This document shows positions 11,811 to 51,357 of a stretch of 64,000 nucleotides of DNA, in pieces (within the stretch, counting starts at the first letter, position 1; every line of letters begins with the position of its first letter). The stretch lies in NCBI GenBank assembly GCA_025766275.1, contig JAFKAC010000159.1:1-64000 (forward strand), written 5' to 3'. The notes under the pieces are model-generated. The model did no database searches and had not been told where the DNA came from. It saw nothing but the letters and a program-made list of their open reading frames with translations. The position numbers and the translations under genes were made by a program. Origin of the DNA: Lactarius indigo. Lineage: Eukaryota > Basidiomycota > Agaricomycetes > Russulales > Russulaceae.

Positions 11811-12318
11811 TGTTATGCTCCACCGGCGTTAGTCCGACTTGGACTCTGGACAGGCGTAATCGACTTAGCAAAAGCTCGGCGAATGGGGATCACGTGTCAA
11901 CCCAACGCATGCTAAACAGGGGCACACTGGCACACACTGTAGCAAAAGTGAAGAAGTACTATCCCTTGGTGGATAGCAGTGGAGACACACTTAGTCCAAG
12001 ACTAAGGCAGACAAAAGACGAATCAAGTGGTGGATTGAAGAAGACCAAGATGGGGACTCCTGGTCTTCCGAGATGACTACTTATACAAATATGCGCAGGC
12101 TTTAAAGCGCCGCTAGAAACAATAGGTAACCAATAGCGTAACTAGCTCGAACCCTAGTACAGCTATCCTAGGAATGAGTCATACATGAGTCACAATCACA
12201 TGCGAACTACTATGCTGACTGATACGAAGTAAGAGTCCATGACTAATATCAATACCGGACTGTAGTCATAACCGGTCATGAGTCGTGTGTAATGAGTTAT
12301 CAAGTCCGTACCGTAACA
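11811..12318 (-). repeat. Element A LTR (3' LTR)
   Basis: 508 bp, TGTTA to GTAACA. Differs from 19104-19603 by 11 substitutions and an extra GACTTAGC. A purine-rich tract (GAAAAGGGGGTGA on the minus strand) abuts its inner edge at 12319-12331, fitting a polypurine tract. Confidence 0.93.
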
Positions 12319-12350
12319 TCACCCCCTTTTCAGGAGTGAGGCCCACCTCA

Positions 12351-15300
12351 CTAATCCGCTTGCGATTCCTGCCTCATTCGTTCCGCTTCATCCTCCATGC
12401 GTGCTAATATATTAGCTCGCTCGAGGCGATAGAGACTGTCCCTTTTGTCCTGAACCACCATCTCCTTTTCCAGCTGTAGTTGTCGGATCCGCTTCTCCAG
12501 TTGGTCTTCGGCAAACGCAAATTGCCTGAACCGGTGCAATTCTTGAGTGAGAGTGACATCTCCAATGCGCATCAGTAGTAGGTCAGTGGGGTGTCGATCG
12601 CAGAGCATGAAATACTCCTCGTGGGGTATAAAAGCCCGGTTGTCCTTCGGGAGATGCAGTGTTGCGTAAAGGGGTTTGCCGTAGAGAAAGCCGGATCCTG
12701 GAACTAATCCGAGTACGAAGGGGTCTCCTCTGCGGATAACCTGTACGTGGGAGGCTTGTATCGTCGGTCTGTTGGGGAGCTTGATCGGGAATGGAATGTA
12801 ATTGGGTCCTCAATTGATCCGGAACCCTTCAGGGACAACTGCTCTGGTTGCTGGGTCTCGTTCGCCCATTGGTGTATAATGAGCCGCTTGTGCCACGGCG
12901 ACTCGTCCTCTGTGAAGAGGGTTCCCTGCTGCGTCGACGAGGAAGGGAGTGGCTGCTGGATCTTCAGCGTAGAATTCATGGTTAAGGAACGCGTGCCTGA
13001 TGGGGTAGTGGTCTCCAAGCTCATCTTCATCCTCATCTTCGTCCAATACTCCTTCCGTTCCTTCATCATCCGGCATCGGCAGGCGGCGATATGCAGTTGC
13101 TCCTGCTGCCACTGCGCCGCCGTCTCCTTCCATTCTTGCTCGTACTTCTGCATGGCGTTCGGTGGTTTCACCACGCGGGACAGCTGCTTGAAGCCAAAAC
13201 AACTCGTCTTCGGTGATGAGGACTTCGGGCTCACCAGTGTCGGGGTTTGTGAGGGCGTACATTGACGGAGGTGCTGGTTGAGTTGCTGCTGGATCGTCGT
13301 CGACAACTCCCTGTATGGGCACAGGGAATCGTTGCAATGTCTGGTACAGTTCTTCACTAGTGATAGGGCCGTCTTCCTCATGCTGCAGGGAGGTACAGCT
13401 TCCAGCCGCAGCTCTAGCAGTTGCGGTGTTGTTGGTGGTGTCGGGGTCGACGAGTGTGGCAGAGGAGTCATTGACAAGGGTGGAGAGAAGTGCAAGCTGG
13501 TCATTGCATCGAGTAGAGGACATGGGATGAGTGAATGATGGGGACTTATCATGACAAGAGGCCATCCTTATATGCGTTTCTCTGTTGGGATTGGAATGTT
13601 TGAACTCCCGAATGGCTTCATCAGCAAATACGTCATCCTTATCTATCCACTGATTGTCGGAGTCCAGATACCCCTTCCATTTCACGAGATACTGGAGTCG
13701 ACGTCTTCTGCCAAATCGCCAAGAATCTAGAATCTTCTCGACCTCGTATTCTTCTTTGTTGTCGACCAAATCAGGTGGTGGGCGCTGATAATTTGGTCCG
13801 TGCGTGGGTGTTTCACGATAAGGTGTGAGAAGATCTATGTGGAAGACATCATGGATGCTCCACTGCGTGGGAAGTTCGAGGCGATAGTTGACAGGGGACA
13901 TCACCTGGATGACCTTAAATGGTCCATGCCATTTAGCAGCTAGTTTTGCGGTTGGTTGGTGTGTGCGTAAGTGGCGTCCTTCTAGCCACACAAGGTCTCC
14001 TTCTTGGAATTTGGGCGTATCTTTGTGTTTAACCCATGACTTTTGCGCCCGGAGCATGCAGGAGAAGGCACGTTGTCGCGCTTGTTTGAATTGATCTAAC
14101 CTTAACGATACTTGTGGGATAGGGGAAGGTCTATCGGTCCAATCAGTGCAAGGGTTGAACCCTGATAGGAGGAAGAAAGGGGATTCCCGTGTAGTCTCAT
14201 TGGGCCAGTTGTTATGCGTGAATTCTGCCATAGGCAGATAACGAACCCAGTCATCTTGTCGCTCGTTTACCCAAAAGTGGAGATATTGCTCCAGCCATTG
14301 ATTTGTTCGTCCTGATTGGCTGTCGGTTCTAGGATGATAGGTGGTCGAGATGTTTTGGCTTATGCCAAGAATCTTGCATATCTCTTGCATAAATTTGGAA
14401 GCGAAACGGGGGTCTCGATCACTGATGACACGCGAGGGAAGTCCAAATCGTGGGAAGACATGGGAGACGTACAGGGAAGCCGTCCCTTCGGCAGTTATTT
14501 CTTCGTTGCAGGGAATGAAGATAGCTGCCTTAGTGCAGTCATGGTCCGTTACTGTGAGAATGGAGTCGTAGCCACGAGAAATAGGAAGCTTGGTGATGAA
14601 GTCCACGGCGATGGTTTCAAATGGTAGGGCTTCCAGTTTGGGGTAGATGGGTTGTAATGGCGCTTTGATGGGTTGGAGGTTGACTTTGTGCCATTGGCAT
14701 TCTGCACAGCCTTTGACATAATCTGTAATGTTGTTTTTCATCTGTGGCCACCAGTAATGCCGTTCAGTGAGTTGGAGAGTGCGTTTGATACCTGGGTGGC
14801 CATAGACAAGGGAGTCGTGATGGGCAGCGATGATGGTACGTTTGTCATGGATGCCACCAGTAACCACTCGGCATCCGTCCTTATACCACGTTCCTTCGAT
14901 GTCTTTTAGCTTATGAGCGTCGACCCAAGGCTTCAACTTAGCTATGTCTTGCTCATAAATGGGGTGTCCTGGGGTCATTTCGACGGGTAGGATTTCAGGT
15001 CTCCAGTGTGGGTGTTGTGGTTCTTCCAGCGTAGCGGTGCGTACGAAGACGCTTTCCAGCAGTACCATTATTCCTTCATTGTCATTTTCTCCTTGGTCGT
15101 AATCTGGTCTTCGTGATAGTGCGTCAGCGCGTTCGTTGGAGGTACCCTTGATGTGGTGAATTTCGAAATTGTATTCTGAGAGTTCGAGTACTTCCCTGGC
15201 TATGTGCCTGCTAATCTTCTGTGGGGACTTCCAATATTGCAGGTTAAGGTGATCGGAGAATACTTTGATTTTGTGAGGGGAGCCCACTAAAAGGGGTCTC

Positions 15301-17143
15301 CAGTGGCGGAAGGCCTTGACGATTGCTAGGAGTTCGAGGTCGTAAATATTGTAATTTCGTTCGGCCTCGTTGAGAGTGGACGAGTAGTAGCCAATGGGGT
15401 GTCGTTTACCATCTGTTTTGCGTTGAAGGAGGACTGCTCCTGTTGCAAAGCCTGATGCATCAACTTCCAATTCAAATTGTTGAGTGAGGTCGGGGTGTGC
15501 AAGAACGGGTTCACTGGTAACGAGTGTTTTGAGGTCTTGGAATGCCTTCTCTTCTTTGGTTCCCCAATGCCATTCGGTGTTTTTGCAGGTGAGTTTGTTG
15601 AGAGGTCGTGCTTTGGTCACAAATCCTCATATGAACAGTTGGTAAAAATTGCAAAAATCAAGGAAGGAGCGGACGTCCTTAACTTTAGTTGGCATAGGCC
15701 AGTCCTTAATGCCCGAAATTTTAACGGGGTCCATACGTGTCACCCCCTTTTCAAGGATTACCCCCAGGTAATCCATGTGTGGGGAGTGGAAAAGACATTT
15801 TTCGAGCTTGTAGTACAAATCATGTTCCGCTGATACGTGAAGGACATCTTTGACTGTGTCTATATGATCCGGTAGTGAGTGATTTAGTCCTGTAGCGATG
15901 CCGATGTCGTCCATGTAAACCCAAATAACCGTTCCTCGTTTTTCGTGTTTCGCGATAATGTCCCTGAAGATGAAGTTCATCATGGTCTGGAACGTTGCCG
16001 GGGAGTTGGTTAGGCCGAAGAACATCACCGTAGGTTCGAACAGGCCGTAACGCGTTTTAAACACTGCCTTCTCTTCGTCTCCTTCTTTGATGTGTATATT
16101 ATTGTACCCCCATCTAACGTTGAGCTTGGTGTAGATGTGGGCATTGCTAAGGTTGGTGATGAGGTCAGAAATGAGAGGGAGTGGGTATTGATTGCGGATG
16201 GTGACCGCATTGATCTTCCAATAGTCCTGGACGGGTCGCAACTTCCCATCCTTCTTTTTGATGAAAAGAAAGACGAAGCATATGGAGATTTAGAAGGTCG
16301 TATATACCCCTTCTTTAACTACTCGTCAATCCATTCGCGTAGTTTCTTGTCTTCTTCTTGAGTCATAGGATATATTTTGCAGTCAATCGCATCAGCAGTT
16401 CTGGGTTTAAATTCGATGGCGTGATCCCAGGGCCTGCTGGGTGGAGACCTGTCTGATGCTTCTTCACTGAAGAGACGTTCGAACTCGCGATACTCGGGTG
16501 GTAACTCAGCTTTAGTGACGTATTGTTGAGCGGCAATACCAAGGTTGGTGGCTGTGGCTTGGATTCGGCATCCTTCTTCGAATTGTTGTCGCTGTTCGTC
16601 CGTGATAACACAAGAATGCACTATTTCGTAGTCATCGTTCTGGATGGTGGTTGTTGCAACGACCGGCGTTGTCTTGATGTAAGGATTAGTTGATCAAATA
16701 ATGATAGGGAGCATATCCTCATGTATAGCGGCTTGTGACCATTTGATATGTGGGTCATAGTTGGCGAGCCAGGGATATCCTAATACAATATCTTCGTTGC
16801 CGATATCTGTAATGAGGAAGCGGATCTCCTTGTGAATGCCTTTAGTTTGAACATCAACATCGGTATAATGAGTGATACGCCCCGACTTATTTTCCGTGTT
16901 ATCAATATTCCATATTTTCTTTGGGACGTCGAGTTGTTTGGTTCCAAGTCCCATCCTCTTTGTGAAGGAGGGCTTCATGAAGCAGTGGGTTGCTCCTGAG
17001 TCAACGAGTGCTCATATGTTGGCCATTGCGTAACTGGTGCGAATCGATACTGGAACTCTCATAGAACGATAGCGAGTCATGATTACACTGTTACAATTAA
17101 CTGCCCTTACCCAGGCCGATGGGTTCAGGCGTCCTGAAAACCC
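12351..17143 (-). pseudogene. Element A Pol with fused post-chromodomain domain (broken)
   Basis: Order: protease (ALVDSGATHCF near 16990), RT (RPVQDYWKIN, KLNVRWGYNNIHI with the catalytic Asp replaced by Asn, WVYMDDIG), RNase H (LEVDASGFATGAVL), integrase (Cys-His knuckle ending CAECQ, then AVDFITKLP and ISDRDPRFAS), chromodomain (YEVEKILDSWRFGRRRRLQYLVKWKGY), then an acidic linker and an extra domain (SHVQVIRRGDPFVLGLVPG) ending in a coiled coil rich in Arg and Glu. TGA codons at 17012, 16694, 15627 and 12810, a TAG at 16319 and a one-base deletion near 16255 break it. At 12810 element D has CGA. True end TAG at 12351-12353. Entered by -1 slip from gag at 17137-17143. Confidence 0.9.
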
Positions 17144-19089
17144 TCCTTTTTCCACAACTGTTGGAGGATAATGTCCTTTACGTCATCTGATTCTCCCACT
17201 ACTCCGTTAAGCCAATCACTGGCACGCTGTTGAGGGGGCACGTCTTGAACCGCCCTAGTAGCGACCTCTGGTTCTTGTTGATGGTAGTTGGTATCAACAT
17301 AGCGACTGGTTGATGCTTGAGGCTGGTAACCTCCGCGCGGCTGTCTACAATCGCAGGCCATGTGTCCGTCCTTTCCACAGTTGTAGCAAGTGACTGGCCT
17401 TTGATTATTACGTCCTCCTCCTCTTTGAAGGAATCCTCCTCTTGGTCGGTATGGGGGGCAGGGAGTGAGTATATCTTCAGCTCCTGCCAGCCACCCTCGA
17501 ATTCGATCTGCGGAGGTATCCATTGCATTTGGATCTTGAGGCAGATTTCTTGGTTGCCAGGAACTTCTAGGTGGTCCTTGCCATTGTCGTTGCTGACGCG
17601 GTCGCCCTTGTCCTTGTCCTGAGGGCGCTCCTTTGTTGAGTACCACCTTGAGGTGAAGGTATTGCTGTTGACGGGTAGTGGCTGCTTCTTTCCACTCGCG
17701 GTAATTTCAGGGATTGTTGAGAGTGTAGACCTTCTCATATAGGTCTTTTGGTAATCCGCTTGCAAATAGATCTAGTGTTTGCGGATCATCGAGCCGGTAC
17801 TGAGCGCAGCGTATTAACTGTTCGAATTGGGTGCAATACTCATCTAGATTGCCCCCAATCATCTTGACTCCTTTTTTGAGCTCGTATTGAGCTTGTTCTT
17901 GCTCCATTGTATTTCGGAAGCGCTGCATGAAGCTGCACATGACTTCATTCCATAGTCCTTCACTGGTACAGGGTATTCCTGTTTGTATCTGGCCATTAAG
18001 CCAGGTGAGCATCGCCAATACCCATTCGCTGACATTGACGCCCTTGATATAAGATAAGAAGAGTAGGGCTTGTCGATATGGTGTTGCCATAATGCCTTCA
18101 TCTGCGTTCATCCCCCAGTAGACATGCCACTGGGTGAGGAACGCTTCTACTTTTGCGCGTTCTCCATTGAATACTGTTGGTGCTTCACCAGCTAATTTGT
18201 TACTTGGGGGAGGGGCAATGGGACCTGCACCTGGTAATCCTCCTCCGGGGTGTCCTCCTCCTGGTGGTCCTCCCAGGAATCCTCCAGGGAACCCCCCAAA
18301 TCCTGATCCTCTTGGCAGGGGTCCTCCTCCTGGGAGATCGCCAGGGGGTCCACCTCCTCCACTGGGGGGATCGGCAACGTCTGGGCCGATGGCTCGATGG
18401 ATTGCTACATCGTCGTCGGTCATTCGATGACCTGTGTAGGGGTTAATGGGAGCTAAGTTAGCCCAAGATTCTTCTGCGATGCATCATTGTTCTTCTAGGG
18501 CTATTTGATCCCTTGCTTCAATGGTGAGCTGTACGTCTTCTTGTGTGATAGTGGCTGTTGCCATTGCAACTGCTGGACTGTGAATATGAATTACTTCTGG
18601 TTCGGGTTGGTGAATGGTCAAGGACTCAGTTTGTTGTATGATGTGATCGCCAATGGCCCCTAGGCTAGCTCCTTCTGCTGGCGTTGTTCCCCTACTTGGT
18701 GATTGGTTTTCGGAAGCTTCTTCTCCACTAATTCCTTCGTCTGTGTGTTCTTGTGCTTGCCCGTCAATGGGACCGTAATCCGCGCGGCTATTAAGTTCTC
18801 ACGCGTCGATGTCGCAATTGTAGTTCCTTCCTGCTGGTCGTATGATGTCCCAGCGATGGTCTATGGGGTTCCAAGTAACCTCGACCCAACAGAGATGTTT
18901 GAAATTAAACTCAACGGGTCGGAAATGGTTAGGACCGTTAAACTCTACGAAGTATCCAGTATCTTCTCCTCGTTCTCTCCACTGAGCTGCTTCCAAGAAT
19001 CTTGTTGGTACGTTGCGATCTCCTCGTCATTCAATGTGATAGGGACGGAAGGACGTCCACTGATCTCTGGTCGAGTACGCCACGATGAG
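17125..19089 (-). pseudogene. Element A Gag (broken)
   Basis: One frame of about 650 codons ending at the TGA at 17125-17127. N-terminal domain shared with D (TGYFVEFNGP, FNFKHLCWVEVTWNP), then a Gly/Pro-rich segment (about 18200-18360), a retrotransposon capsid-like region (18100-17750) and one CCHC knuckle, CYNCGKDGHMACDC, near 17370. TGA codons interrupt at 19027, 18799, 18484 and 17707; at 19027 element D has CGA and at 18799 CGC. No ATG is visible at the start, so the first codon is not known. It would form the particle that packs element RNA. Confidence 0.85.
17137..17143 (-). promoter_or_regulatory. Element A gag-pol -1 frameshift site G GGT TTT
   Basis: On the minus strand the gag frame reads GAG GGT TTT CAG, three codons before its stop. 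Slipping back one base at G_GGT_TTT enters Pol. A small stem ACCCA/TGGGT follows. Same heptamer at the same place in element D. Confidence 0.75.
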
Positions 19090-19090
19090 G

Positions 19091-19370
19091 ATCTTGGTCT
19101 TAATGTTACGCTCCACCGGCGTTAGTCCGACTTGGACTCTGGACAGGCATAATCAAAAGCTCGGCGAATGGGGATCACGTGTCAACCCAACGCGTGCTAA
19201 ACAGGGGCACACTGGCACACACTGTAGCAAAAGTGAAGAAGTACTATCCCTTGGTGGATAGCAGTGGAGACACACTTAGTCTGAGACTAAGGCAGACAAA
19301 AGACGAATCAAGTGGTGGATTGAAGAAGACCAAGATGGGGACTCCTGGTCTTCCGAGACGACTACTTATA
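19091..19370 (-). promoter_or_regulatory. Element A promoter, self-primer and primer-binding site
   Basis: Minus strand: TATAAG (19370-19365), then after 34 nt ATCTTGGTCTT (19336-19326), the likely RNA 5' end. The complementary AAGACCAAGAT (19101-19091) lies 2 nt inside the 5' LTR edge. This is the arrangement of Tf1-type self-priming. Confidence 0.8.
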
Positions 19371-19603
19371 CAAATACGCGCGGGCTTTAAAGCGCCGCTA
19401 GAAACAATAGGTAACCAATAGCGTAACTAGCTCGAACCCTAGTACAGCTATCCTAGGAATGAGTCATACATGAGTCACAATCACATGCAAACTACTATGC
19501 TGACTGATACGAAGTAAGAGTCCATGACTAATATCAATACCAGACTGTAGTCATAACCGGTCATGAGTCGTGTGTAATGAGTTATCAAGTCCGTACTGTA
19601 ACA
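19104..19603 (-). repeat. Element A LTR (5' LTR)
   Basis: 500 bp; partner of 11811-12318. Carries the TATA box and self-primer of the element. Right flank CGCA is the second target copy. Confidence 0.93.
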
Positions 19604-20930: not shown

Positions 20931-21629
20931 TGTCATGAACCTATAACCCGGTCATGACTCAAGGGGCGCTTAGGACCAGTCCGCGTCGGCCCGGTCTTAT
21001 GTAATCACCTTCCTAAAGGGGAATTCCGAATCGGAGTTTGAAATCTGTTCTCAAACGGTCACATGATCAGTCACATGATCAGTCATGTGATCAGTCACGT
21101 CTCTCAAGTCACGTGTTGTGTACACGTGTACTAATCAACAGTTGATTGTTGATCAATCAACGAAGATAATCAACCAAGTCACCATCCCTCGGGGATTCCC
21201 GCATTGACTGCGGAATCACGCCATCTTGACGCAAGATTGCGCCATTGACTGCGGCGCAGTCGTTCTATGTTTAAACCCCTTCTGATTGGACTCTATTGTT
21301 AGATGTCTCTAGAATGTTCCATTGTGCAGTACTGCGCAGCACCCGTGGATGGGCCCTAAGCCTGCCCTAAACCTACGCACAGACCACCCCCTGTAGTATA
21401 TAAGCTGGTGCAATTCTACGGACAGTCCCTCAGACTGTCCACTTGTGACATCCTCCCTCTTGCCTCACAGCTCCTCGAGTGCCCCGCTCTTCGCGCACCA
21501 CTACCTCTCTACTGAGCCAAGAGCATATCTTGTGTTCTTCTGTCGTCGAGCATCTCTTCTCCACACCCTCTCAGCCCCCAGTCTCTGCCTACGTTGTGAC
21601 CCCCTGTTGAGTGACAGTGAGTCATCACA
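20931..21629 (+). repeat. Element B 5' LTR
   Basis: 699 bp, TGTCATGAAC to GTCATCACA. Contains three near-identical copies of TCACATGATCAG (21058-21095), CACGTG boxes, an AT-rich palindromic stretch (CAACAGTTGATTGTTGATCA) and TATATAA at 21397-21403. Confidence 0.96.
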
Positions 21630-21641
21630 CTTGGACAGTCT
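21397..21641 (+). promoter_or_regulatory. Element B promoter, self-primer and primer-binding site
   Basis: TATATAA at 21397-21403. AGACTGTCCA at 21432-21441, 35 nt downstream, is the likely RNA 5' end. TGGACAGTCT at 21632-21641, its exact complement, lies 2 nt after the LTR. Fits self-priming. Confidence 0.8.
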
Positions 21642-21671
21642 AACCCAATAGACTGACTCCGGGCTGCTCCA

Positions 21672-26389: not shown

Positions 26390-29300
26390 TATTCGTGCCA
26401 GTAGCGTTGTACACGGCCTTTCCCTACTAGAGACGCTCGGAGCCGAGCCTGTACCTGTAGAGACGATTCGGAATAGGAGAGCTCCTTCAATCATCCTCAA
26501 GGTGACACTAGTAGGAAAGAAGTCTGGCAGAGAAATCAGTGCCCGCGCCCTGTTGGACAGTGGTGCGGAGGGCATCATCGTGGATGATGGGTTTGCGCGT
26601 GCAAACGGGCTCACAATGAGAACACTAATCCGACCTTTACCAGTTAGAAACGTGGATGGGTCACCCAATAAGATGGGTTCGGTCAAGTACACCACGATCC
26701 AGAGATTATGGATCAGAACAGCAGAAGACGCTTATCATGACGAAACAGTAGAGCTATATGCCACCACCCTTGGGGAGCACGATATAATCCTAGGAACCGA
26801 TTGGCTCCAAGCACATAACCCGGAAATTGATTGGCATCAACCCAAGATAGCATTTACAAGATGCCCGAAAACCTGTACCCTGTCAACAACGAGTGTTGTT
26901 ATTTCTTCCCGAGTCCCTCAAATGAGGAATACTACAATAAACATCCTAGAGTTAGGACCTGAAGACGCAACAAGAGCTTGCCTCCCGACTATCGAAGAGA
27001 TAGAACCTGTCGAACGAGCGTTCACCCAAGAAGCCTACGAACCCTGGCTGTGGAGTCACAGTTTCTGCAAGTACGATCACCTCGCAATCCGAGCAAAAAT
27101 CACTACGAGTACCAAGATAGCTGCAAAGACCACACCTAAACCTTCCTCCGAGCACATCCCGAGTCATTTCCAACGATACACCTGAGTTTTTAGTGAGAAC
27201 GCCTCTCACCGTTTACCTGAGCACCAACCCTGGGATCATGCAATTGATCTGAAACCTGGAGCCACGATGAAGAACTGTGGCATCTACCGACTCACGCCTA
27301 AAGAGGCTGACGCACTCAAGGAGTACATTTCTGAGCACCTGCGAAAAGGTTACATCCAACCATCCAAGTCCCCCATGGCCTCTCCTTTCTTCTTTGTGGA
27401 CAAGAAGGATGGGAAACTCCGACCGGTACAAGACTACCGGGCTTTGAACGACATCACGATCAAAAACACGGCGCCCCTACCCCTCATTCCCGAGTTGATC
27501 AACAAACTTCACAACGCGCGTTACTTTACCAAGTTAGATATTCGTTGGGGGTACAACAATATCCGCATCCGAGAAGGCGATGAACACAAGGCAGCCTTCA
27601 AAACCTCCTTAGGTCTTTTCGAGCCAACCGTAATGACATTCGGTCTCTGCAACGCCCCAGCAACGTTTCAAACGTTCATGAATCAAGTTTTTGAGTCTCT
27701 GGTCGATGGTGGACATGTAGTAGTCTACCTGGACGACATCCTGATCTTTACGGAAGATATCTCCTCCCTTACAGCGTTGACACACGACGTGCTTCAACGG
27801 CTGGAAAGTCATGACCTCTATCTGAAACCCGAGAAGTGCGTGTTTGCACAAACCTCTGTTGAATACCTTGGCATCGTTATTTCCAATGGCCAAGTATCCA
27901 TGGATCCGGCAAAGGTTGCCGGAATTACCGAGTGGCCCACTCCGCATACAGTCAAACAAGTCCAAGCCTTCCTAGGCTTCTGTAACTTTTACCGGCGATT
28001 TATCAAAGATTATTCTACCATTGCCCGACCACTCTTCGATCTAACCAAGAAAGATGTACCTTTTTCTTGGGGCACCCCAGCGGAAAGTGCTTTCCGCGCC
28101 CTGATTAAATGCTTCACGGAAGCTCCTGTCCTAGCCCTTCCTGACCATTCCAAGCCCTTCCGACTCATCACTGACGCCAGCGACTTCGCCACAGGCGCAG
28201 TCCTTGAACAACCTGATGCTCTGCACCAATGGCACCCCGTTGCTTTTCTATCAAAATCTCTCCTTCCTGCCGAACGACATTATGAGATTTGCGATAAAGA
28301 ACTTTTGGCCATTATTCATGCCCTCCATGCCTTCCAACACTACCTCGAGGGACGTAGTGACTCCACCGAAATCTGATCCGACCACAATAACCTGGCCTAC
28401 TTCATGACGAAGCAGAAACTTTCCCGTCGACAAGCGCGGTGGGCGCTTTTCCTGTCTCATTTCCAGTTCATCATCATCCACAAGCCTGGTGTTCAGAACA
28501 AGTCTGATGCACTGTCCCGGCATCCAGACCATAAAAAGGGGATAGCAGATGAAGATGAAAAATGAGTGCTCCTGGATACAAAATTTTTCTCGGTCAATGC
28601 AGTACAAAGAACTGCAATTACCATTCACGGCAATAATACTCTTCGACAACGCATCCGAGACACACACACCTACGACAAAGAAGTCAGCACAGCCCTAGAA
28701 ACCCTCTTGAAGAATGGCCCCCGTTCCTTAACCAAGGGGCTAGAAGAGTGGAACTTAGAAGATGGAGTCATCTTATTCCGAGGACAAGTTTACATACCCA
28801 AAGACGACAACTTACGAAGAGACATCGTAACTCAGTATCACGACCACATCGCCACAGGACACCCAGGGCGATGGAAGACTTATGAACTCCTTTCCCGAGA
28901 CTTTTGGTGGCCAGGGATGTCGACGTTCGTCAAAGAATATGTCGATGGATGTGCCACCTGCCAATCCACGAAGATCAAACCACGAACCCAAGTACCTCTG
29001 CAACCCAATGCTATTCCCGAAGAAATCTGGGGAACCATTACAATGAACTTCATCACTGACCTTCCCCCCTCCCACAACCACGACTCGTTGTTCGTAGTCG
29101 TTGACCGACTCAGTAAAGCAGTAGTCATTTCCCCGTGTAACAAGACCATCACAGCAGACGAAACTGCTCGACTTTACCTGGAAAACATCTGGAGACGTAC
29201 CGGCCTACCCCGACAAGTTATTTCCGACAGAGGCCCTCAATTTGCATCAAAAGTAATGCAAGAAATCTGGAATAAATTAGGAGTCAAATCTACCCTGTCC

Positions 29301-30125
29301 ACGGCTTTCCATCCGCAAACAGATGGAGAAACCGAACGCGTAAATCAAGAACTCGAACAGTACCTCCATGTCTTCTGCAACTTCCAACAAGACAACTGGG
29401 TAGATCTGATCCCATTTATGGAGTTTGCGCACAACGCACGGCAGCACAGCGCAACTCACAAGTCACCCTTTGAAGTGTGGTATGGGTACAATCCGGAGTT
29501 CATTCCCCCTATCCACTTCAAAAGCAAGATACCTGCAGCCAAAGAAAGACTAGATGCGTTGAACCGAATCCGCTCTGAAGTCACTGCAGCCCTCAAGGTT
29601 GCTGCAGAAGTAATGAGAAATTCCAAGTCAACCACGACCTCTCACAAGTTCAACGAAGGTGATCTAGTCTGGCTGGAAGGAACTAATATCCACACTACCC
29701 ACCCCAAAGCTAAACTCGCCCCCCGACGCCATGGTCCCTTTAAAGTCCTATCTTCCTGGGGAGTTAACTGCAAACTCCAACTTCCAAAGACATGGCGAAT
29801 TCACCCAGTCTTCCATAATTCCTTGATCTCCCCATACAAAGAAAACACTGCGCACGGCCCTAACTTTACCCGACCACCCCCCGAAATTGTCCAAGGGGAA
29901 GATGAACACTATGAAGTCGAAAGAGTCCTGCAGTCAAAGGTATCGCCCAACAAGAAAGGCGTACTTTACTTGATCAAATGGAAGGGGTATCCTGACTCCA
30001 AGAATTCCTGGCTCCCTGCCTCCCAAATGTTCCATGCCCAAGAGCTTGTCCAGCGTTTCCACAAGGACAACCCCTCCGCCCCTCGACCAAAGAACATCAG
30101 TGCTCGTGGAATAGCACGACGCTAA
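26349..30125 (+). pseudogene. Element B Pol: protease, RT, RNase H, integrase, chromodomain
   Basis: Protease (ALLDSGAEGIIVDDGF, 26550), RT (KLDIRWGYNNIRI, VVYLDDILIF near 27730), RNase H (LITDASDFATGAVL, CDKELLAIIHAL), integrase (Cys-His finger ending CATCQ; ISDRGPQFAS; later Glu in HPQTDGETERVNQ), chromodomain (YEVERVLQSK, LYLIKWKGYPDSKNSWLP). It ends at a TAA at 30123-30125. TGA codons at 27183, 28374 and 28563 break it. The integrase motif reads TMNFITDLP where sister elements have DFI, so the first catalytic Asp is lost. No extra domain follows the chromodomain; the polypurine tract starts at once. Confidence 0.92.
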
Positions 30126-30136: not shown

Positions 30137-30835
30137 TGTCATGAACCTATAACCTGGTCATGACTCAAGGGGCGCTTAGGACCAGTCCGCGTCGGCCCGG
30201 TCTTATGTAATCACCTTCCTAAAGGGGAATTCCGAATCGGAGTTTGAAATCTGTTCTCAAACGGTCACATGATCAGTCACATGATCAGTCACGTGATCAG
30301 TCACGTCTCTCAAGTCATGTGTTGTGTACACGTGTACTAATCAACAGTTGATTGTTGATCAATCAACGAAGATAATCAACCAAGTCACCATCCCTCGGGG
30401 ATTCCCGCATTGACTGTGGAATCACGCCATCTTGACGCAAGATTGCGCCATTGACTGCGGCGCAGTCGTTCTATGTTTAAACCCCTTCTGATTGGACTCT
30501 ATTGTTAGATGTCTCTAGAATGTTCCATTGCGCAGTACTGCGCAGCACCCGTGGACAGGCCCTAAGCCTGCCCTAAACCTACGCACAGACCACCCCCTGT
30601 AGTATATAAGCTGGTGCAATTCTACGGACAGTCCCTCAGACTGTCCACTTGTGACATCCTCCCTCTTGCCTCACAGCTCCTCGAGTGCCCCGCTCTTCGC
30701 GCGCCACTACCTCTCTACTGAGCCAAGAGCGTATCTTGTGTTCTTCTGTCATCGAGCATCTCTTCTCCATACCCTCTCAGCCCCCAGTCTCTGCCTACGT
30801 TGTGACCCCCTGTCGAGTGACAGTGAGTCATCACA
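30137..30835 (+). repeat. Element B 3' LTR
   Basis: 699 bp; 12 differences from 20931-21629, 11 at CpG. One ancestral ACGGG appears as ATGGG in the 5' copy and ACAGG here, deamination on opposite strands. TATATAA at 30603-30609. Confidence 0.96.
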
Positions 30836-31524: not shown

Positions 31525-32106
31525 TGTAACGCCACTACAGGGGCGTTAGGTACGACCTGCACCAAGTCAGTCAATCGATCGGTAGTACAGGCTCAGAGGC
31601 TTGACTTCAGAGAGAATGATGCACAAGGATCACAAGGACTCTAGTCACTTGGATCGTAGAGGAAGGCTAAGACACGAAGGCCTAGCAGGAGCGGGGATCG
31701 CAAGACAAAGGACATGTGGAGGTGTTCTGTGTTAGACGAGTGTAGTATTACACAAGAAGTCTAGTCTACCGTACAAGCTAGATAGGACTAGGTTTAAATA
31801 GATAACGACTAGTATGGCGACTACAAACAAATGGTGCCATCGCCGGTCTTGGAACAATGGATGAGACCTAACGAGAACAAGAGAACGTTGTACTGGGAAT
31901 AAAGGTGAATCACACGGGATCGCGTGTGATTGGGAGTGCAATGGAAACTAGCACATGTCGAACTTTATCAGAAGGGAACATCGATAAGTAGGGCGTGTGA
32001 TAGGAACCGGGGAATTGTAAAGTCTGCGTAGTCGTACAGGGCTCGTATAGTGTGGGAAAGGGAATAGTAACATGGGAAAGGAACGAGTCCAAGGAAAATC
32101 GTAACA
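31525..32106 (-). repeat. Element C 3' LTR
   Basis: 582 bp, partner of 39502-40083. A G-rich polypurine tract (GACGGGGGGTAA on the minus strand, 32118-32107) abuts its inner edge. Confidence 0.95.
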
Positions 32107-39480: not shown

Positions 39481-39488
39481 GGTGTGGG

Positions 39489-39777
39489 AGACTAGACTTA
39501 ATGTAACGCCACTACAGGGGTGTTAGGTACGACCTGCACCAAGTCAGTCGATCGATCGGTAGTACAAGCTCGGAGGCTTGACTTCAGAGAGAATGATGCA
39601 CAAGGATCACAAGGACTCTAGTCACTTGGATCGTAGAGGAAGGCTAAGACACGAAGGCCTAGCAGGAGCGGGGATCGCAAGACAAAGGACACGCGGAGGT
39701 GTTCTGTGTTAGATGAGTGTAGTATTACACAAGAAGTCTAGTCTACCATACAAGCTAGATAGGACTAGGTTTAAATA
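39489..39777 (-). promoter_or_regulatory. Element C promoter, self-primer and primer-binding site
   Basis: Minus strand: TATTTAAA (39777-39770), 33 nt on AGACTAGACTT (39744-39734), the likely RNA 5' end. The complement AAGTCTAGTCT (39499-39489) lies 2 nt inside the LTR edge. Confidence 0.82.
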
Positions 39778-40083
39778 GATAACGACTAGTATGGCGACTA
39801 CAAACAAATGGCACCATCGCCGGTCCTGGAACAATGGATGAGACCTAACGAGAACAAGAGAACGTTGTACTGGGAATAAAGGTGAATCACGCGGGATCGC
39901 GCGTGATTGGGAGCGCAATGGAAACTAGCACATGTCGAACTTTATCAGAAGGGAACATCGATAAGTAGGGCGCGTGATAGGAACCGGGGAATCGTAAAGT
40001 CCGCATAGTCGTACAGGGCTCGTATAGTGTGGGAAAGGGAACAGTAACATGGGAAAGGAACGAGTCCAAGGAAAATTGTAACA
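39502..40083 (-). repeat. Element C 5' LTR
   Basis: 582 bp; partner of 31525-32106. At one site this copy has CA and the other TG, where the related solo LTR at 8036-8619 keeps CG. Confidence 0.95.
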
Positions 40084-40968: not shown

Positions 40969-41001
40969 GCACATGTTGTGCAATACTTTTGATCGCCACT
41001 G
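40969..41001 (-). repeat. Tc1 right terminal inverted repeat
   Basis: Reverse complement begins CAGTGGCGATCAAAAG; pairs with 1700-1732. Followed by TA at 41002-41003. Confidence 0.9.
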
Positions 41002-42887: not shown

Positions 42888-43680
42888 TGAAATCAAGAGC
42901 ATAACATCAACAACATCTCTCTCATGCCACCTCGTCACCCACCCCAATATCCTCACATTGCAGCTAGTGAACTCCCTGTTGACATTGTCACCCGCATTGA
43001 ACGAGAAGTCAAAGAATGGGCGCAAGTCGGATGACACTACAACACTCGACGCAACTCCCCAAATTCATGCAAAGACATGTTCAGGTACAGCACCTATTTG
43101 CAAGCAGACAGGACTCACTGCTGCACATCCCAAGCCCATGAGCGATGCCAGCAACACCTGAGAAGAGAGGCAGCAGAAATCATTGCTCAAGGAGAAGAAC
43201 CGGAAGACAATGAAGTCATCTACGAGCAGTACTTCCAAGATAACCCCCTTCCCGATGAACCCCAACCTGCTCAACAAAACCAATGTCTTCATCCCAGTCA
43301 AGACTGGAGGATGCAACCACCCGACCATCCCTACCAGATTGAGATACCAGCAGCCAACGGGACCTACCACAATGCACCGTACATACGATTCCTTGTAGAT
43401 CAACATGACAAACCAGTCATCATGGGAGCGGACAGACAATGACAACCTCAATACTTCGCTACACTCTGCGCAGTTCCACAGCCTGACAATCTCCGCAACA
43501 AAGCATTGGACAGCAAACAAGATCTCTTCTCTGCACATCACACTGCATGACACCATGTAGACCACACCCTCATGACTCTAGCTGACCCTGGAGCATGCAC
43601 CAAGATACATTGATTGCGCAAGTCTGAAGGGGAAAGAGATCACCTCATCCAATGAATGAGGGAAACAGAAAGGGCCTGGA

Positions 43681-44133
43681 TGTAACGCTGTCACAGCGTT
43701 AGCTCGACTAGAGCTCGGTAAGGCGACTTGGCAACTTAGCTGATCACGCACTGAGGCGTATGGCACGAAGGCTTCCTCTAGATGTTCGAAGACACTAGTA
43801 TGATTACGGCACTCTTACTTGATGTAGAGGCGAAGCGAGGATTCGAGAACAAGAAAGTGACGATTGAAGAAGACCAAGATGGCGTATCTTGGTCTTCCGC
43901 AGCTACCTTAAATACAGGAAGAGCAGGCTTTCAAGCGCTGCTATGAGTCATCGTATCGTAGCGTCCAACGTATCGCGTAAGTATCGCAATCCTAATACTA
44001 CTACTACTTGTACTAGGATCGAGTCATCCCTCAACGCCTAACTCCTATCGTAAACCCCGAGTCCGTGACTAATATACCTTACAGCCGTAGCCACAACCAG
44101 TACAGTAAGGGTTCAGTGCGCGCAACCGTAACA
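43681..44133 (-). repeat. Element D 3' LTR
   Basis: 453 bp. Contains a perfect 12-bp inverted repeat, GAAGACCAAGAT (43869-43880) and ATCTTGGTCTTC (43886-43897), beside the expected RNA start. A polypurine tract AGAGAAGGGGGTGA (minus strand) abuts the inner edge. Confidence 0.96.
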
Positions 44134-44164
44134 TCACCCCCTTCTCTAGCGTGAGACCCCAGAC

Positions 44165-47100
44165 TCACCGAAAGTCTCGCGCCGTCCACGTAGACTGCTC
44201 GTCGCTAATCCTCTCGAACACGTTAGCCCTCTCCAATCAGTAGATGCAGTCCCTCTTATCATCCCTTGCCAACAGCCGCATGGCCTGAAGTTGACGGATA
44301 CGGGCCGCGAGCCGCTCTTCTTCATATGCAGCTGCACGGTACTGCGTCACCTCTGCAGTCAGGGACTCGTCCCCAATGCGGTTCAGTGCGCGGTCTGTGA
44401 TTTTGTCGGAGGCGAGGATGACTAAGTCCTCGTGGGCGATGAAGGCGCGTCCCGCAGCCGATAGCATCGGATGAGCGTAGAGGGGTTTGCCGTAGAGATG
44501 GGGGGAACCGGGAATGAGCCCCAATACGAAGGGATTCGCACCTCCAACAATCTGCACATGACTGGCGTTCCTCTCTACGCTGTCGGGTCCGGTGATGGGG
44601 AAGTGAATGTAATGGGGCTGTCGATTCGCCCGGAACCCTTCAGGCGCAAGGACCTGCGCAGGGTCGTTGTCGTGCGTAATGGGGGTGTGAAGTGCGACGC
44701 CGGGCAATCGCACACGTCCTCGAGACATGGCGGTTCCGTCGGTGTGAACAAGCCATGGGGTGATTCGGGGATTAGTAGGGTGGCTGTGCATTCGAAGGAG
44801 GGGGTGTCTGACCAGGTAGTAATCCTCGTCGCCAGCGTGAGCCTTGTCGTGAGGGAGCGCTGCCTGCGCTGCCGCAACTCGCTCAACCTCCTCTGCGCTA
44901 AGCGCAGTTGTTCGTCGGCCCACTCCTTCGCCACTCTCCGCCAGTCCTCCGCTGCTTCTAACTCCTGTTGGGTCTTCGAGGGGATGGTCGGCAGGGAGAA
45001 TTCCCCGCGTGCCGATGAGGTTGTCACCTGGGGGGATAACGGCAACAGGTTCTCGATTGCCGTTGTTGTCTCAGAAGATGTGAGTGACGGCATGCTGCTG
45101 CTCGTCGTCGGGCTGGTGAGTCGGGTCGGGGAATCTCTGTAAGGCGTTAGCCCATTCTTGAGCGGTGATATGCCCCGCTCGCATGTTTGCAGGTGTGTAC
45201 GGAGTGAGCTGAACCTGTTGAACCACGGTTTCTTCGTCGTCTTCGATGAGGTTGGTGGTGTCTTGTGCGACTTGGTCGAGGAGGATCGCTGTGGTGACAT
45301 GTCTAAGAGGGGAAGTGGGCATAGAGGTATAAGCGGATCGAAGGTGAAGGGGATACTCCTCTTGATCGTCCGCAGGTTGGCTTTTAAGGACCCTCACGGC
45401 TGCCCGTCCCGCTTGATACGCCTCTATTGCTTCCGGTGCGAATACGTCATCCTTATCGACCCACTGATTCTCCGAGTCTGGATACCCCTTCCACTTGATG
45501 AGGTATTGGAGCCTTTTGCGGCGGCCGAAATGCCGTGAGTCTAGAATAGCCTCGACCTCGTATTCTTCCTCTCCTTCCATGAGGTCTGGCAGTGGACGTG
45601 GGAAATTTTCGCCGTGAATGGTCGTGCTTTTGTACGGCGTGAGAAGATCTATGTGAAACACCGGGTGGATGCTCCACTGCGTGGGAAGCTCAAGGCGATA
45701 GTTATAGGGGGACATCACCTGGACTACTTTAAATGGGCCGTGGCGTCGTGCCGCTAATTTCACCGTTGGTTGGTTGGTCCGAAGGTGCTTCCCTTCCAGC
45801 CACACTTGATCTCCTACTTGATAGCAGGGTGTGTTCCGATGCTTTACCCACCCCTCTTGTGCCTTCTTGATAAGGCTTTGGGCCAGCTGTCGTGCTTCCT
45901 TTAGCTGCGTCAACCTAGTAATCACGTTTGGGATAGGGGATGGCTTATCCATCCAATCAGCTGTCGGATTGTAACCCATGAGTAGCATGAATGGGGATTG
46001 TTTTGTATGCTCATGGGGCCAGTTGTTGTGAGTGAATTCTGCTATAGGAAGATATGCCGCCCAGTTATCTTGCCGCTCGTTGGCCCAGAATTGCAGATAT
46101 TGCTCCAACCACTGATTGGTCCGCTCCGACTGTCCATCCGTTCGTGGGTGGTATGCTGTTGAAATGTTCTGCTTGATGCCCAGGATCCGACATACCTCCT
46201 TGGTAAATTTAGACGTAAATTGGGGGTCACAGTCACTAATAATCTTGCGTGGTAACCCGAATCATCTAAAAACGTGATTAACGTATAGGATGGCGGTCTC
46301 TTCCGCTGTAATTTCCTCATTGCACGGGATGAATATCGACGCTTTGCTGCAGTCGTGATCTGTAACAGTGAGGATGCTGTCATACGATTGGGACGTTGGT
46401 AACTTAGTGATGAAGTCCAACGCGATGGTGTGAAAGGGGGGCGCGTCTGTTACTGCGGTGATGGGGTATAGTGGTGCGCGAGTCAGTCTTGTATTGACCT
46501 TGTTCCGTTGACAATCGGCGCATCCTACCACATATTCATATACGTCCCGACGAAGGCGTGGCCACCAGTAATGTCGTTCGACAATCCGCTGGGTCCGGCT
46601 GATACCAGGATGTCCATGAACGGGAGGGTTGTGGTGGTCGTGTATTATGGCCCGGTATGCGGTCATAGGTCCAGTGATTACCAGCTTTCCATCCTTATAC
46701 CATTCTCCTTCGATTTTCTTCAGCTGGTGGGCGTCGACCCATGCTTTGATGATGGTTTGATCTTGGACCCGTCTCGGTTGTTGTAACATTGGGTGTATTT
46801 CCAGGGCGCGCGCGGCATTAGCGACTCATATAAAGACTTCCGGTGGTAAGACAACCACACCTTGGTTATCCTCCTCCCCCTGGTTGTAATCTGGTCGTCT
46901 AGATAGAGCGTCCGCTCTGCCGTTGTTCTTCCCCTTGATGTGATGGATTTCGAAGTTGTATTCCATTAGTTCCAGTACTTCTCGGGCGACCCTTCGGCTG
47001 ATCTTTTGCGGGGTCTTCCAGTATTGGAGGTTGAGGTGGTCGGAGAATATTTTGATCTTGTGTGGGGATCCTGCGAGTAGGGGTCTCCAGTGTCGAAGGG

Positions 47101-48904
47101 CCTTGACGATGGCGAGAAGTTCTAGGTCATAGATGTCGTAATTTCGCTCGGCTTCGTTTAGCGTTGCCGAGTAATACCCTATTGGGTGCTTGCAACCGTC
47201 ACTTTTCTTTTGCAGGAGTACTGCACCTACCGCGAATCCCGACGCATCGACTTCCAGCTCAAACTGATCTTGTAAATTGGGGTGTGCCAATACTGGTTCT
47301 TCAGTTACGAGGCATTTGAGGGTGTTAAATGCACGATCTTCTTCGTCTCCCCATTTCCATTCAGTATCCTTCCTCATTAGTCGGTTGAGTGGTCGCGCGT
47401 GGGTTGCGAAACCTCAGATGAAAAGGCGGTAAAAGTTACAGAAGCCCAAAAATGATCGTACGTCCCTAACTTTGGTCGGTGTTGGCCAGTCCTTGATGCC
47501 ACAAACTTTTACCGGATCCATGCGTGTTACCCCCTTTTCAAGGATTACCCCCAGGTAATCCATCCGAGGTTGGTGAAACAGGCATTTCTCGAGTTTGAAG
47601 TAGAGGTCGTGGTCCTGGGCGACGCGAAGGACATCCGTGACTGCCGCGACATGGTCGGCGGATGTAGACCCTTCGCGTGTGGCGATGCCAATGTCGTCCA
47701 TGTAAACCCTAATGATTGTACCACGAAGCTCGTGTTTGGCAATGGTGTCACGGTAGATGTGGTTCATCATGGTTTGGAAGGTTGCTGGTGAATTTGTGAG
47801 TCCGAAGAACATGACCGTTGGTTCAAAGAGGCCAAACTTCGTTTTGAATGCCGCCTTTTCCTGGTCGCCATCCCGTATGCGGATATTGTTATATCCCCAG
47901 CGAATGTCGAGCTTTGTGTAGATGTAGGCATTGCTGAGGTCGTAGATGAGGTCCTGGATCAATGGAAGTGGGTACTGATTGCGTATGGTATGTGAGTTGA
48001 TGACACGGTAGTCCTGCACAGGGCGTAGCTTTCCATCCTTCTTTTTAACAACAAAGAATGATGATGCATACGGGGAGATCGAGGGGCAGAGGTACCCTTG
48101 TCGGAGCTTCTCGTCTAGGAACTCCTTGAGTTTTCCTTCCTCCTCTTGCGTTAATGGGTATATTTTGCAGTCGATTGCGGAGGGCGTGCCGGGTTTGAAG
48201 TCAATTGCATGGTCCCATGGTCTGGCAGGGGGGAATCGCTGGGATGCATCTTCGCTGAAGAGCTTCTGAAAAGCCTGATATACCGCTGGCAGTTCCACAG
48301 GTTTTTCTTCTATTTTCGCCTTAATGGCTAGTTCCGTAGACGTAGTTGCCCGCAGATACGTATCTTCGTCATTCATCTCCTGGATGATTTCCTCCTTTTG
48401 CTCGTTAGTAAGGGCAGATGCAATAACAGTATGACAGTCTAGACTGTCCTGCGTGCTGATCACGATCGGCATGATGTCTTCGTGTATAACCGCATCCCTC
48501 CAGTTGATGGTTGGTTCGTACGTTGCCAGCCAGGGGTACCCCAGGACGATATCTTCACTCCCAAGGTCCGTGATGAAGAAGCGCATGGTCCTGTGATATC
48601 CTTTGGCGTATACGTCTAGGTTGGTGAAATGAGTGATAGACCCAGCTTTATTTTCTGTATTGTCTATGTTCCAAATTTTTCGGGGTTGAGTTAGCGATTG
48701 AATGCCAATACCCAGTTTTGCTGTGAAGTTGGGGTGTATGAAATTGTCGGTGGCTCCGGAGTCCACCAATGCCCTTATGTCAGCCATTCGGTAATTCGTG
48801 CGAATCGAGACTGGAATTCGAAGGGAACGAAAGCGTGTCATGATTACAGAATTACAATTTAAAGCCCTCACCCAGGCCAATGGGTTCAGGCGTTCCGAAA
48901 ACCC
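44165..48904 (-). pseudogene. Element D Pol with fused post-chromodomain domain
   Basis: One frame from the slip site to a TGA at 44165-44167. Protease (ALVDSGATDNFIHP), RT (KLDIRWGYNNIRI, VYMDDIGIA near 47705), RNase H (LEVDASGFAVGAVLL), integrase (HHNPPVHGHPG to CADCQ; ALDFITKLP; ISDCDPQF; HPRTDGQSERTNQ), chromodomain (YEVEAILDSRHFGRRKRLQYLIKWKGYPDSENQW), then a linker and the extra domain (SHVQIVGGANPFVLGLIPG, YGKPLYAHPML) with a C-terminal Arg/Glu-rich coiled coil. TGA codons at 47414, 46826, 46262, 45071 and 44237. At 46826 element C has CGA, at 46262 A has CGA, at 44237 A has CGC. No frameshift or other stop. Confidence 0.92.
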
Positions 48905-50883
48905 TCTTTTCCCCACAAATCCTGCAGTATCAGGTCCTTTACTTCATCCAGTGCATTTGCGACCCCAGTAAGCCACTCTTTGGCTCGTTCCTCTGCGGTT
49001 TTACTAGTGGAGGCAGCCTGTATTTGGGTGGGCGGCAGTTCTTGCGCATAGTAATCGGTTTCGGTTACGCGGATATTTGAAGGTCCGGCATTTTGTGGTT
49101 GCCACTGCCGCGGTTGTCTGGGATGGGGCCAATTTCGTGAGAGGTGACCCGGTGCGTTACAGTTATAGCACAACACCGTCCTGAGATCTCGTCGTGAGCC
49201 TCCTCTTCCTCGTCCTCTCACTCCTGGCCCTCCTCTAGGTGGGAAGGGGGGTTGGTTCATATATGGTGGTTTACTGTAGTCGATTTCTTCTGACCCTGCT
49301 AACCTTGCCTTTGTTCGATCGGCCGAGGTGTCCATCGCCCATGGGTTTGCAAGGTTTTGTGGGACAGTCCATCCAGCGTTGCCTGTCTTCTTAGGCTTTG
49401 TATCTTTATATTCATCTACTCTTGCTCGGATGTGAATGTAGTTTCACTGTCGATGAAGTGTTGCCCGTTTCCACTCGTCGAAGGTTTCCGGCTCGTCCAG
49501 GTCGTAAGTCTTTTCGTATAGTTTTTTGGGTAGTCCCTTTGTGAATAAGTCAATGGTCTGAGGGTCGTTGAGGCGATAGCCGGCCTTCCTGGCGGCTTCT
49601 TTGAACTCGTTGACGTATTTGTTGATATCCCCGTCAGCCATTTTGAGTCCCTTCCTCAACAGGGCTTGAGCTTGTTCTTGTTCGAGGGTATTGACGAACC
49701 TTTGGTTAAATCCCTCTGCCACTGCGTTCCATAGATCCCTTGTATATTGATCTATTCCTCATTGTATTTGTCGGTTGAGCCACTTGAGGTACGAGAGTAC
49801 CCATTCGCTAACTGATATTCCCTTGATATAAGAAAGGAAGAGGAGACATCGCCGGTAATCGTTGCGCATGACAGGGGTGTTGAGGTTCATTCCCCAGTAT
49901 ACATGCCATTGTGTGAGGAATGAATCGACTTTAGTGCAATCTCCGTCGAAAATAGTGGGAGGTTCACCGGTTAGTTTCTCGTGTCCGCCTGCTGGTAGAC
50001 CTCCACCCCCACCCGGTGGGCCTCCACCTCCGCCTGGTGGGCCTCCACCTCCGCCCGGTGGGTTGTTCGGGATATCCGGTGGATTTCCTCCTCCACCTGG
50101 TCGTCGGGGAAAGTCCCCTCCCGGAGGTCCTCCCCACCCTGGCGGGGGATCGAGTGATAGTCCTCGTCTTGGTCCGTCCCCTGATGGAGGGTCACCTTGA
50201 TCGGGTCCAATGGCCCGAAAGATCGCGGCATCATCTGCGGTCATGCGGTGTCCCGTTTCGGGATTAATGGGTAGGAGATTTCGTTGGGATTCTTCTCTGA
50301 TTGCCTCAGCTGCTTCTCATGCTGCCTGTTCTCTCATGGTCATGATTTCTTCCGCCGTCATCGTAGTTGTGGCCATTTCTGCCGCGGGTGATCGTACGTG
50401 AATGACTTCCGGCTGCTCCAAAATGTGTAAGGACTCAGCTCGTTGGATGGTGTATTGCTCGATAGCTCCGACGCTTGCGGGTTGATTTTCTCCACTTTGT
50501 TCTTCCTCTTCGGTTTCTTCGCTGACTGCTTCTCCAGTGGAGTGTTCTCGTATCTGGCCGTCTATGGGCCCCCAATCGGTGCGGGAATTGAGTTCGCGCG
50601 CGTCGATGTCGCACTGGTACTGTCTTCCTGCTGGTCTAACGATGTCCCAGCGGTGTTCTACGGGGTTCCACGTAATTTCCACCCAACACAAGTGGTCGAA
50701 ATTGAACTCAACGGGTCTGAACCTTGTAGGTCCGTTGAACTCTACGAAGTATCCGGTTTCGTTCCCTCGGTCTCTCCACCTAGCTGCTCCTAGAAATTGG
50801 GTTGGTACGTTGCGATCCCCTCTTCGTTCTAGGAAGTAAGGACGAAAGTTCGTCCACTGGTCCCTGGTATTGACAGTCACCAC
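48886..50883 (-). pseudogene. Element D Gag (three in-frame TGA)
   Basis: Frame from about 50883 (GTG; no ATG seen) to the TGA at 48886-48888. N-terminal domain (TGYFVEFNGPTRFRPVEF, FDHLCWVEITWNP), a Gly/Pro-rich run (50200-49980), capsid-like region (LNTPVMRNDYRRCLLFLSYI; DPQTIDLFTKGLPKKLYEKTY), an Arg/Gly-rich stretch and a CCHC knuckle, CYNCNAPGHLSRNW, near 49160, in which the last Cys is Trp. TGA codons at 50317, 49759 and 49444. Gag would package element RNA; the damaged knuckle suggests weakened RNA binding. Confidence 0.88.
48898..48904 (-). promoter_or_regulatory. Element D gag-pol -1 frameshift site G GGT TTT
   Basis: Minus strand gag frame GAG GGT TTT CGG AAC GCC TGA; the -1 frame reads GGG TTT TCG GAA into Pol. 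A 5-bp stem ACCCA/TGGGT with a 6-nt loop follows 12 nt downstream and is kept in A. Confidence 0.77.
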
Positions 50884-50891
50884 GATGAGAA

Positions 50892-51138
50892 ATCTTGGTC
50901 TTAATGTAACGCCGTCACAGCGTTAGCTCGACTAGAGCTCGGTAAGGCGACTTGGCAACTTAGCTGATCACGCACTGAGGCATATGGCACGAAGGCTTCC
51001 TCTAGATGTTCGAAGACACTAGTATGATTACGGCACTCTTACTTGATGTAGAGGTGAAGCGAGGATTCGAGAACAAGAAAGTGACGATTGAAGAAGACCA
51101 AGATGGCGTATCTTGGTCTTCCGCAGCTACCTTAAATA
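50892..51138 (-). promoter_or_regulatory. Element D promoter, self-primer and primer-binding site
   Basis: Minus strand: TATTTAAG (51138-51131), 34 nt on ATCTTGGTCTT (51104-51094). The complement AAGACCAAGAT (50902-50892) lies 2 nt inside the LTR edge. Confidence 0.82.
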
Positions 51139-51357
51139 CAGGAAGAGCAGGCTTTCAAGCGCTGCTATGAGTCATCGTATCGTAGCGTCCAACGTATCGC
51201 GTAAGTATCGCAATCCTAATACTACTACTACTTGTACTAGGATCGAGTCATCCCTCAACGCCTAACTCCTATCGTAAACCCCAAGTCCGTGACTAATATA
51301 CCTTACAGCCGTAGCCACAACCGGTACAGTAAGGGTTCAGTGCGCGCAACCGTAACA
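50905..51357 (-). repeat. Element D 5' LTR
   Basis: 453 bp; 5 CpG transitions against 43681-44133 and no other difference. Confidence 0.96.

Follow-up and report, generated by a model that had tools for sequence, protein, structure and literature searches.

LTR retrotransposons in the window

The window, i.e. the whole stretch of DNA analysed here, is 64 kb long and opens a contig of 104 kb (G000:C67); the genome measures 90.3 Mb in 291 contigs. Self-comparison of the window recovered four LTR pairs, belonging to elements A to D, and a solo LTR, all at the positions given in an earlier note on this DNA (Table 1). Judged by their domain content, the elements are chromodomain retrotransposons of the Ty3/gypsy type, the Pfam scan having covered selected ORFs of elements A, B and D. 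Element A carries a reverse transcriptase, RNase H, integrase and chromodomain, all present in two adjacent frames, with its pol genes on the minus strand; its integrase core remained under the Pfam cut-off for that domain, while the zinc-binding part was above it. LTRs bounded by TG...CA and accompanied by a 5-bp target duplication were found in B, C and D. In element A the TG...CA ends are present, and a search for a 5-bp target duplication at the LTR flanks returned no match. One 8-bp indel, absent from the earlier note, separates the two LTRs of A. The strand of element C was assigned from its ORFs and from flanking motifs that it shares with A and D.

Table 1. Positions of LTRs and coding regions of the retrotransposons in the window.
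Feature	Position	Strand	Remarks
Solo LTR	8036..8619	.	~80% identical to LTRs of C; self-comparison
Element A left LTR (3' LTR)	11811..12318	-	11/11 differences to partner at CpG
Element A pol: RNase H, integrase zinc-binding + core, SH3_Tf2-1, chromodomain	12810..15620	-	Pfam
Element A reverse transcriptase part	15627..16241	-	Pfam RVT_1
Element A gag part	17707..18423	-	Pfam Retrotrans_gag, E 3e-5, barely above cut-off
Element A right LTR (5' LTR)	19104..19603	-	
Element B left LTR (5')	20931..21629	+	Target duplication GGGGG; 11/12 at CpG
Element B integrase, SH3_Tf2-1, chromodomain	28566..30125	+	Pfam
Element B right LTR (3')	30137..30835	+	
Element C left LTR	31525..32106	-	Target duplication AGTGG; 17/20 at CpG
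Element C right LTR	39502..40083	-	
Element D left LTR (3')	43681..44133	-	Target duplication CTGGA; 5/5 at CpG
Element D protease + reverse transcriptase	47414..48916	-	Pfam
Element D right LTR (5')	50905..51357	-	

Three further features of the window were recorded. A 7-bp tandem array of the CCCTAAA type occupies positions 1-159, at the contig start, and is likely a telomere; the usual fungal telomere unit is TTAGGG. An ORF of endonuclease-reverse transcriptase type (Pfam Exo_endo_phos_2) at 6493-7827 likely belongs to a non-LTR element. Finally, positions 52001-57000 form a CpG-poor repeated segment with 99% copies on C20, C220 and C261; within it, the stretch at 52706-53286 (~580 bp) has a CTAAG target duplication and at least 30 further copies at 95-98%, and looks like a solo LTR.

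Differences between partner LTRs in the window

Transitions at CpG account for 44 of the 48 differences between partner LTRs in the window, a difference being scored as CpG if CG was present in either copy or if TG stood opposite CA. Pairwise alignment with MAFFT reproduced the CpG share that the earlier note had counted by eye for each pair (Table 1), together with its observation that all 48 differences are transitions, and the raw divergences it had given were confirmed (A 2.2%, B 1.7%, C 3.4% and D 1.1%). Pairs A and D lack non-CpG differences altogether. The sites described as having TG in one LTR and CA in its partner were found at three places (A 187/188, B 420/421 and C 311/312), each of which enters as two among the 44 CpG differences; where the LTRs of C show TG and CA (C 311/312), the solo LTR indeed keeps CG.

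CpG columns make up 284 of the 2,234 columns, and the hypergeometric probability of finding 44 of 48 differences there by chance is ~2e-36. This null favours the claim, since by definition any C/T difference followed by G counts as CpG. With a stricter yardstick, the share of CpG-labelled transitions in the single-copy control described below (46/109), the same 44/48 has p ~8e-13.

LTR pairs across the genome

The analysis was extended to 23 pairs, four from the window and 19 from elsewhere in the same genome. The outside pairs belong to D-like and B-like families and were paired by position, with target duplications where the flanks allowed; they do not represent the elements at random, since they were drawn from the best matches of two genome searches. 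Solo LTRs and unpaired matches were excluded from the pair counts. Across 12,738 columns, the 23 pairs showed 155 differences: 138 CpG transitions, 14 other transitions and three transversions. Per site, CpG transitions (138/1671) exceed those at other C:G positions (14/4749) by a ratio of 28 (95% interval 16-49; 16-57 by bootstrap over pairs), a figure that depends on just 14 non-CpG transitions. The earlier note had proposed a genome-wide check of LTR pairs, with a lack of CpG excess as the result that would speak against its reading; the 19 outside pairs show a like excess (94/107 differences). A subset of 18 pairs, consisting of 17 with a matching target duplication plus L046, gave 103/115 differences at CpG and a ratio of 26 (14-48). 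The pairs dropped for this subset were A, L018/L016, L053/L054, L057/L058 and L060/L059, in which the target duplication is absent or approximate.

Pairs differ mildly in their CpG share (heterogeneity p=0.03). L004/L007 (G000:C223) has a matching target duplication, yet it shows zero CpG and three non-CpG differences, unlike the other pairs. In addition, L057-L060 (G000:C35:264851-296487) consist of two inverted B-family elements with mismatching outer flanks and CGTGG common to both elements, an arrangement that is possibly a rearrangement.

At 89 of the 95 CG/TG or CG/CA differences in the D and B families (35/37 and 54/58, respectively) the other copies most often have CG, and the direction of change is therefore from CG to TG or CA. 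Between different elements, the CpG ratio was 0.9 (D) and 4.0 (B) and transversions made up 36% (D) and 19% (B) of the differences, all of these figures being pooled over non-independent comparisons. The low between-element ratio is read here as old divergence of the source lineages, a reading rather than a proof, and the two ratios make CpG decay look like a process that takes place after landing, in the copies, rather than in the transposing lineages.

Pooled raw divergence was 1.22%, versus 0.145% without CpG columns, i.e. 8.4-fold lower. That simple LTR dating overestimates ages, as had been claimed, thus holds numerically, because counting all sites inflates the age of repeats that decay at CpG; the claim is limited to dating in which all sites are read with a non-CpG clock.

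CpG in unique DNA and in other repeats

As a control, one methyltransferase locus was used that is present on two contigs, where it spans 8.1 kb at 97.7% identity. Of this locus, a 3.1-kb part has full-length matches at those two places only, and the two copies are probably two alleles. Here the CpG transition rate was 1.26 times that at other C:G positions (0.86-1.84), and transversions contributed 42 of 151 differences. The CpG share of transitions was 46/109, versus 138/152 in the LTR pairs (p ~1e-17), in a control that is a single 8.1-kb locus, partly coding, whose CpGs selection may hold. In six sampled 10-kb stretches, the CpG observed/expected ratio (o/e) was 0.98-1.03 in four, 0.74 in one and 0.20 in a repeat-rich one. 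On the evidence of the control locus and the sampled stretches, unique DNA shows no excess of CpG transitions, with the exception of the single-copy block in a DNMT1-like gene described below. The repeat-rich stretch (L064, G000:C270:1500001-1510000) has its o/e of 0.20 throughout the 10 kb, and the 4 kb of it that were searched are repeat-rich.

Strong CpG depletion, together with an excess of TG/CA, marks the older repeats of the window. A second class of transposons was considered in view of the proposal that transposon-borne TET/JBP enzymes aid escape from silencing (PMC12730594), and the genome holds at least 38 Tet_JBP domain matches above cut-off (e.g. L071-L078). Among eight 390-bp TET/JBP gene fragments, 14 of 16 singleton changes were CpG transitions, 11 of them in one copy, which has four CpGs left versus 17-20 in the others, plus a stop; in the remaining seven copies, three of four singleton changes were at CpG. 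An exemption of TET/JBP-bearing transposons from CpG decay was therefore rejected, and in its CpG decay this class looks like the LTR pairs; eight copies are too few to judge partial sparing.

Cytosine methyltransferase genes

A search of the genome with the PF00145 profile returned seven matches at four loci. The locus on C270 encodes a methyltransferase domain followed by SNF2, a DNMT5-like arrangement. Its methyltransferase part has as best PDB match 7r76 (E 4e-72), listed as DNA repair protein Rad8, which we take to be Cryptococcus DNMT5, and a cytosine methyltransferase of Fibroporia radiculosa is one named relative of the ORF that bears SNF2. The locus on C112 combines methyltransferase and BAH domains (DNMT1-like); among its relatives a Lactarius sanguifluus protein ranks best, with 99% identity across 64% of the 122 residues used as query, and the organism is therefore probably a Lactarius. 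A second DNMT1-like gene is represented by C234/C235, for which the fungal relatives listed have BAH and mostly RFD domains too. SRA/YDG matches on C1 were weak. A RID-type (RID/Masc1-class) gene was not recognised among the four loci of this PF00145 search, in which introns could mask a weak match. The methyltransferase that the earlier note had suggested looking for thus has candidates in one DNMT5-like and two DNMT1-like genes, and CpG methyltransferase genes, as predicted from domains, are present in the genome.

A CpG-free block in a DNMT1-like gene

The DNMT1-like gene on C112 contains a block of 1,358 bp without a single CpG (L039:4570-5928; G000:C112:1500569-1501927), which spans the BAH region together with the first part of the catalytic domain and is flanked by DNA with CpG o/e of 1.10 and 1.03. 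In the other sequences compared, CpG-free runs did not exceed 612 bp, the longest lying in repeated DNA of the window; in the six 10-kb stretches, taken separately, the maximum was 862 bp for the repeat-rich stretch and 170 bp or less for the remaining ones. No comparable block was found in the other DNMT1-like gene or in the DNMT5-like gene. A 1,750-bp stretch containing the block occurs once in the genome; being single-copy, the block is not accounted for by repetition.

The encoded protein is conserved. Within well-aligned stretches, the block has 292 codons that agree with an orthologue from Lactarius or Russula, some of them entering the count in several frames, and with the Russula emetica protein alone the figure is 143. 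Arginines matched to the Lactarius/Russula orthologues are encoded by AGA/AGG in 8/8 cases inside the block versus CGN in 41/51 outside (2/2 and 26/29, respectively, for R. emetica); as a CpG-free block excludes CGN by definition, the point of this count is the conservation of the protein. Tentatively, the block may be a trace left by methylation that has long affected the gene body of the methyltransferase itself, as could arise for example in a self-limiting feedback loop. Under such a self-methylation reading, which we regard as possible but less than even, methylation decay in this fungus would extend beyond repeats. A description of a CpG-free block in a DNMT1 gene was not found in a limited literature search.

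Origin of the CpG bias

Since an element inserts with two identical LTRs, differences between them have arisen afterwards. The LTR differences are best explained by slow deamination of methylated CpG after insertion, to which we assign a probability of about 0.9; this reading, put forward in the earlier note, gains support from the genome-wide CpG excess and from the predicted cytosine methyltransferase genes. An insertion would acquire CpG methylation on both strands, and this would be kept up by the host DNMT1/DNMT5 enzymes, the genes for which are those described above. Methylated cytosines would then turn slowly into thymine, independently per strand and per LTR, leaving TG or CA; in this chain the TG/CA pattern is what was observed, and the deamination chemistry is what we infer. 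Most unique genes would be spared because they are presumably unmethylated, as suggested by CpG content in the normal range and by the mutation spectrum of one locus, which is normal as well, whereas repeats would shed most of their CpG over time. Passive decay is indicated by a CpG excess in repeats, its absence in unique DNA, the independence of the strands (see below) and the presence of methyltransferase genes.

The main fungal rival, absent from the earlier note, is a RIP-like active defence mutating repeats at CpG in the sexual cycle, to which RIP is restricted; CpG hypermutation in further basidiomycetes has led to such proposals. RIP-like hypermutation would be expected to show strand clustering inside a copy, and the two LTRs could differ in how strongly they are hit. 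The strand-clustered bursts of RIP were not found in the LTR pairs: the mutated strand gave TG 56 times and CA 64 times without overdispersion (p=0.65; 25 LTRs hit at least twice), and left and right LTRs received 72 and 66 hits, again without overdispersion (p=0.99). If anything, the left/right balance is too even (underdispersion p 0.013), to which the counting of each TG/CA site once per side contributes; nine sites with TG opposite CA were excluded from the strand and context counts. CpG counts per pair are graded, from 0 to 20 over the 23 pairs, which also argues against a RIP-like process. An upstream T, as in the TCG-type signature known for Pucciniomycotina, was not enriched (21/120 mutated versus 367/1410 intact CpG contexts), and the CpA target of RIP (CpT in some fungi) does not fit a set in which 138/152 transitions lie at CpG. 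The lack of a recognised RID-type gene among the four PF00145 loci points in the same direction. All strongly CpG-poor DNA found here is repeated, as a RIP-like defence would have it, except for the DNMT1 block, which is single-copy and CpG-free as well and so speaks against it. The CpG C-to-T bias in transposons of Tricholoma matsutake has been called RIP or RIP-like (PMC6980582), and a similar bias in those of Microbotryum has likewise been so described (PMC4352252). On balance, we consider a RIP-like origin unlikely.

Transitions could also be imitated by basecalling or consensus errors of the assembly at methylated CpG, as methylated motifs may produce systematic read errors. Such errors are a very improbable source of the differences, given that five of the 23 pairs have no CpG difference although they contain 62-72 CpG columns each, that the older repeats of the window are strongly CpG-poor with TG/CA in excess, and that the protein of the CpG-free DNMT1 block remains similar to its orthologues, with 143 codons matching R. 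emetica, a likeness that scattered miscalls would spoil. Weakest of all, with a hardly appreciable probability, is the view that the differences stem from recombination between elements, or from gene conversion by diverged copies of the family, and not from mutation in place. The missing target duplications of A, L018/L016, L057/L058 and L060/L059 and the approximate one of L053/L054 would allow it; against it stand the high transversion shares between elements (3/155 in LTR pairs) and the similar ratio in the 18-pair subset.

Comparison with other fungi

With RIP in Neurospora, the changes described here share that they are C-to-T changes in repeats; unlike there, the context is mismatched, a RID-type gene went unrecognised and the expected strand pattern is absent. 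Classical Neurospora RIP involves the RID enzyme and CpA (PMC4352252, PMC12730594). In Zymoseptoria tritici, a mitotic mutation process in repeats depends on Dim2 (PMC8016269). It resembles the present case in that C-to-T change in repeats is tied to a methyltransferase, and differs in that CA mutates there, and CG not at high rates, while here changes are nearly confined to CG (PMC8016269).

Closer parallels are found among basidiomycetes. Transposons of Microbotryum show CpG-biased C-to-T mutation, and the passages cited name only a Masc2/DNMT1-class enzyme (PMC4352252). The dinucleotide signature and the DNMT1-class enzyme agree with the present case, and RID is not listed in those passages; there, copies were set against the consensus of their family or a copy of high GC, and the authors speak of a mechanism resembling RIP (PMC4352252), whereas the use of partner LTRs here removes source-lineage divergence. 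For Tricholoma matsutake, the authors leave a RIP origin of the CpG bias open (PMC6980582). In the rust Austropuccinia psidii, CpG depletion of transposons has been attributed to historic 5mC deamination (PMC12774611). That species, too, is a basidiomycete in which CpG-methylated transposons lose CpG with age and RIP was judged unlikely (PMC12774611); methylation was called from reads there and is inferred here, where, beyond that study, LTR pairs and a single-copy control provide a relative rate. As CpG-biased decay of transposons is already known in basidiomycetes (PMC4352252, PMC6980582, PMC12774611), the present finding is a further instance, clean and well supported.

CpG-biased mutation in mushroom transposons has been labelled RIP or RIP-like. 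With LTR pairs, change that followed insertion can be told apart from earlier divergence of lineages, and in this genome such pairs speak for slow deamination of methylated CpG, besides supplying a relative rate (~28-fold) and, for this sample, the size of the dating error (~8-fold). If confirmed in relatives, the DNMT1 block would make self-methylation of a fungal methyltransferase gene directly testable.
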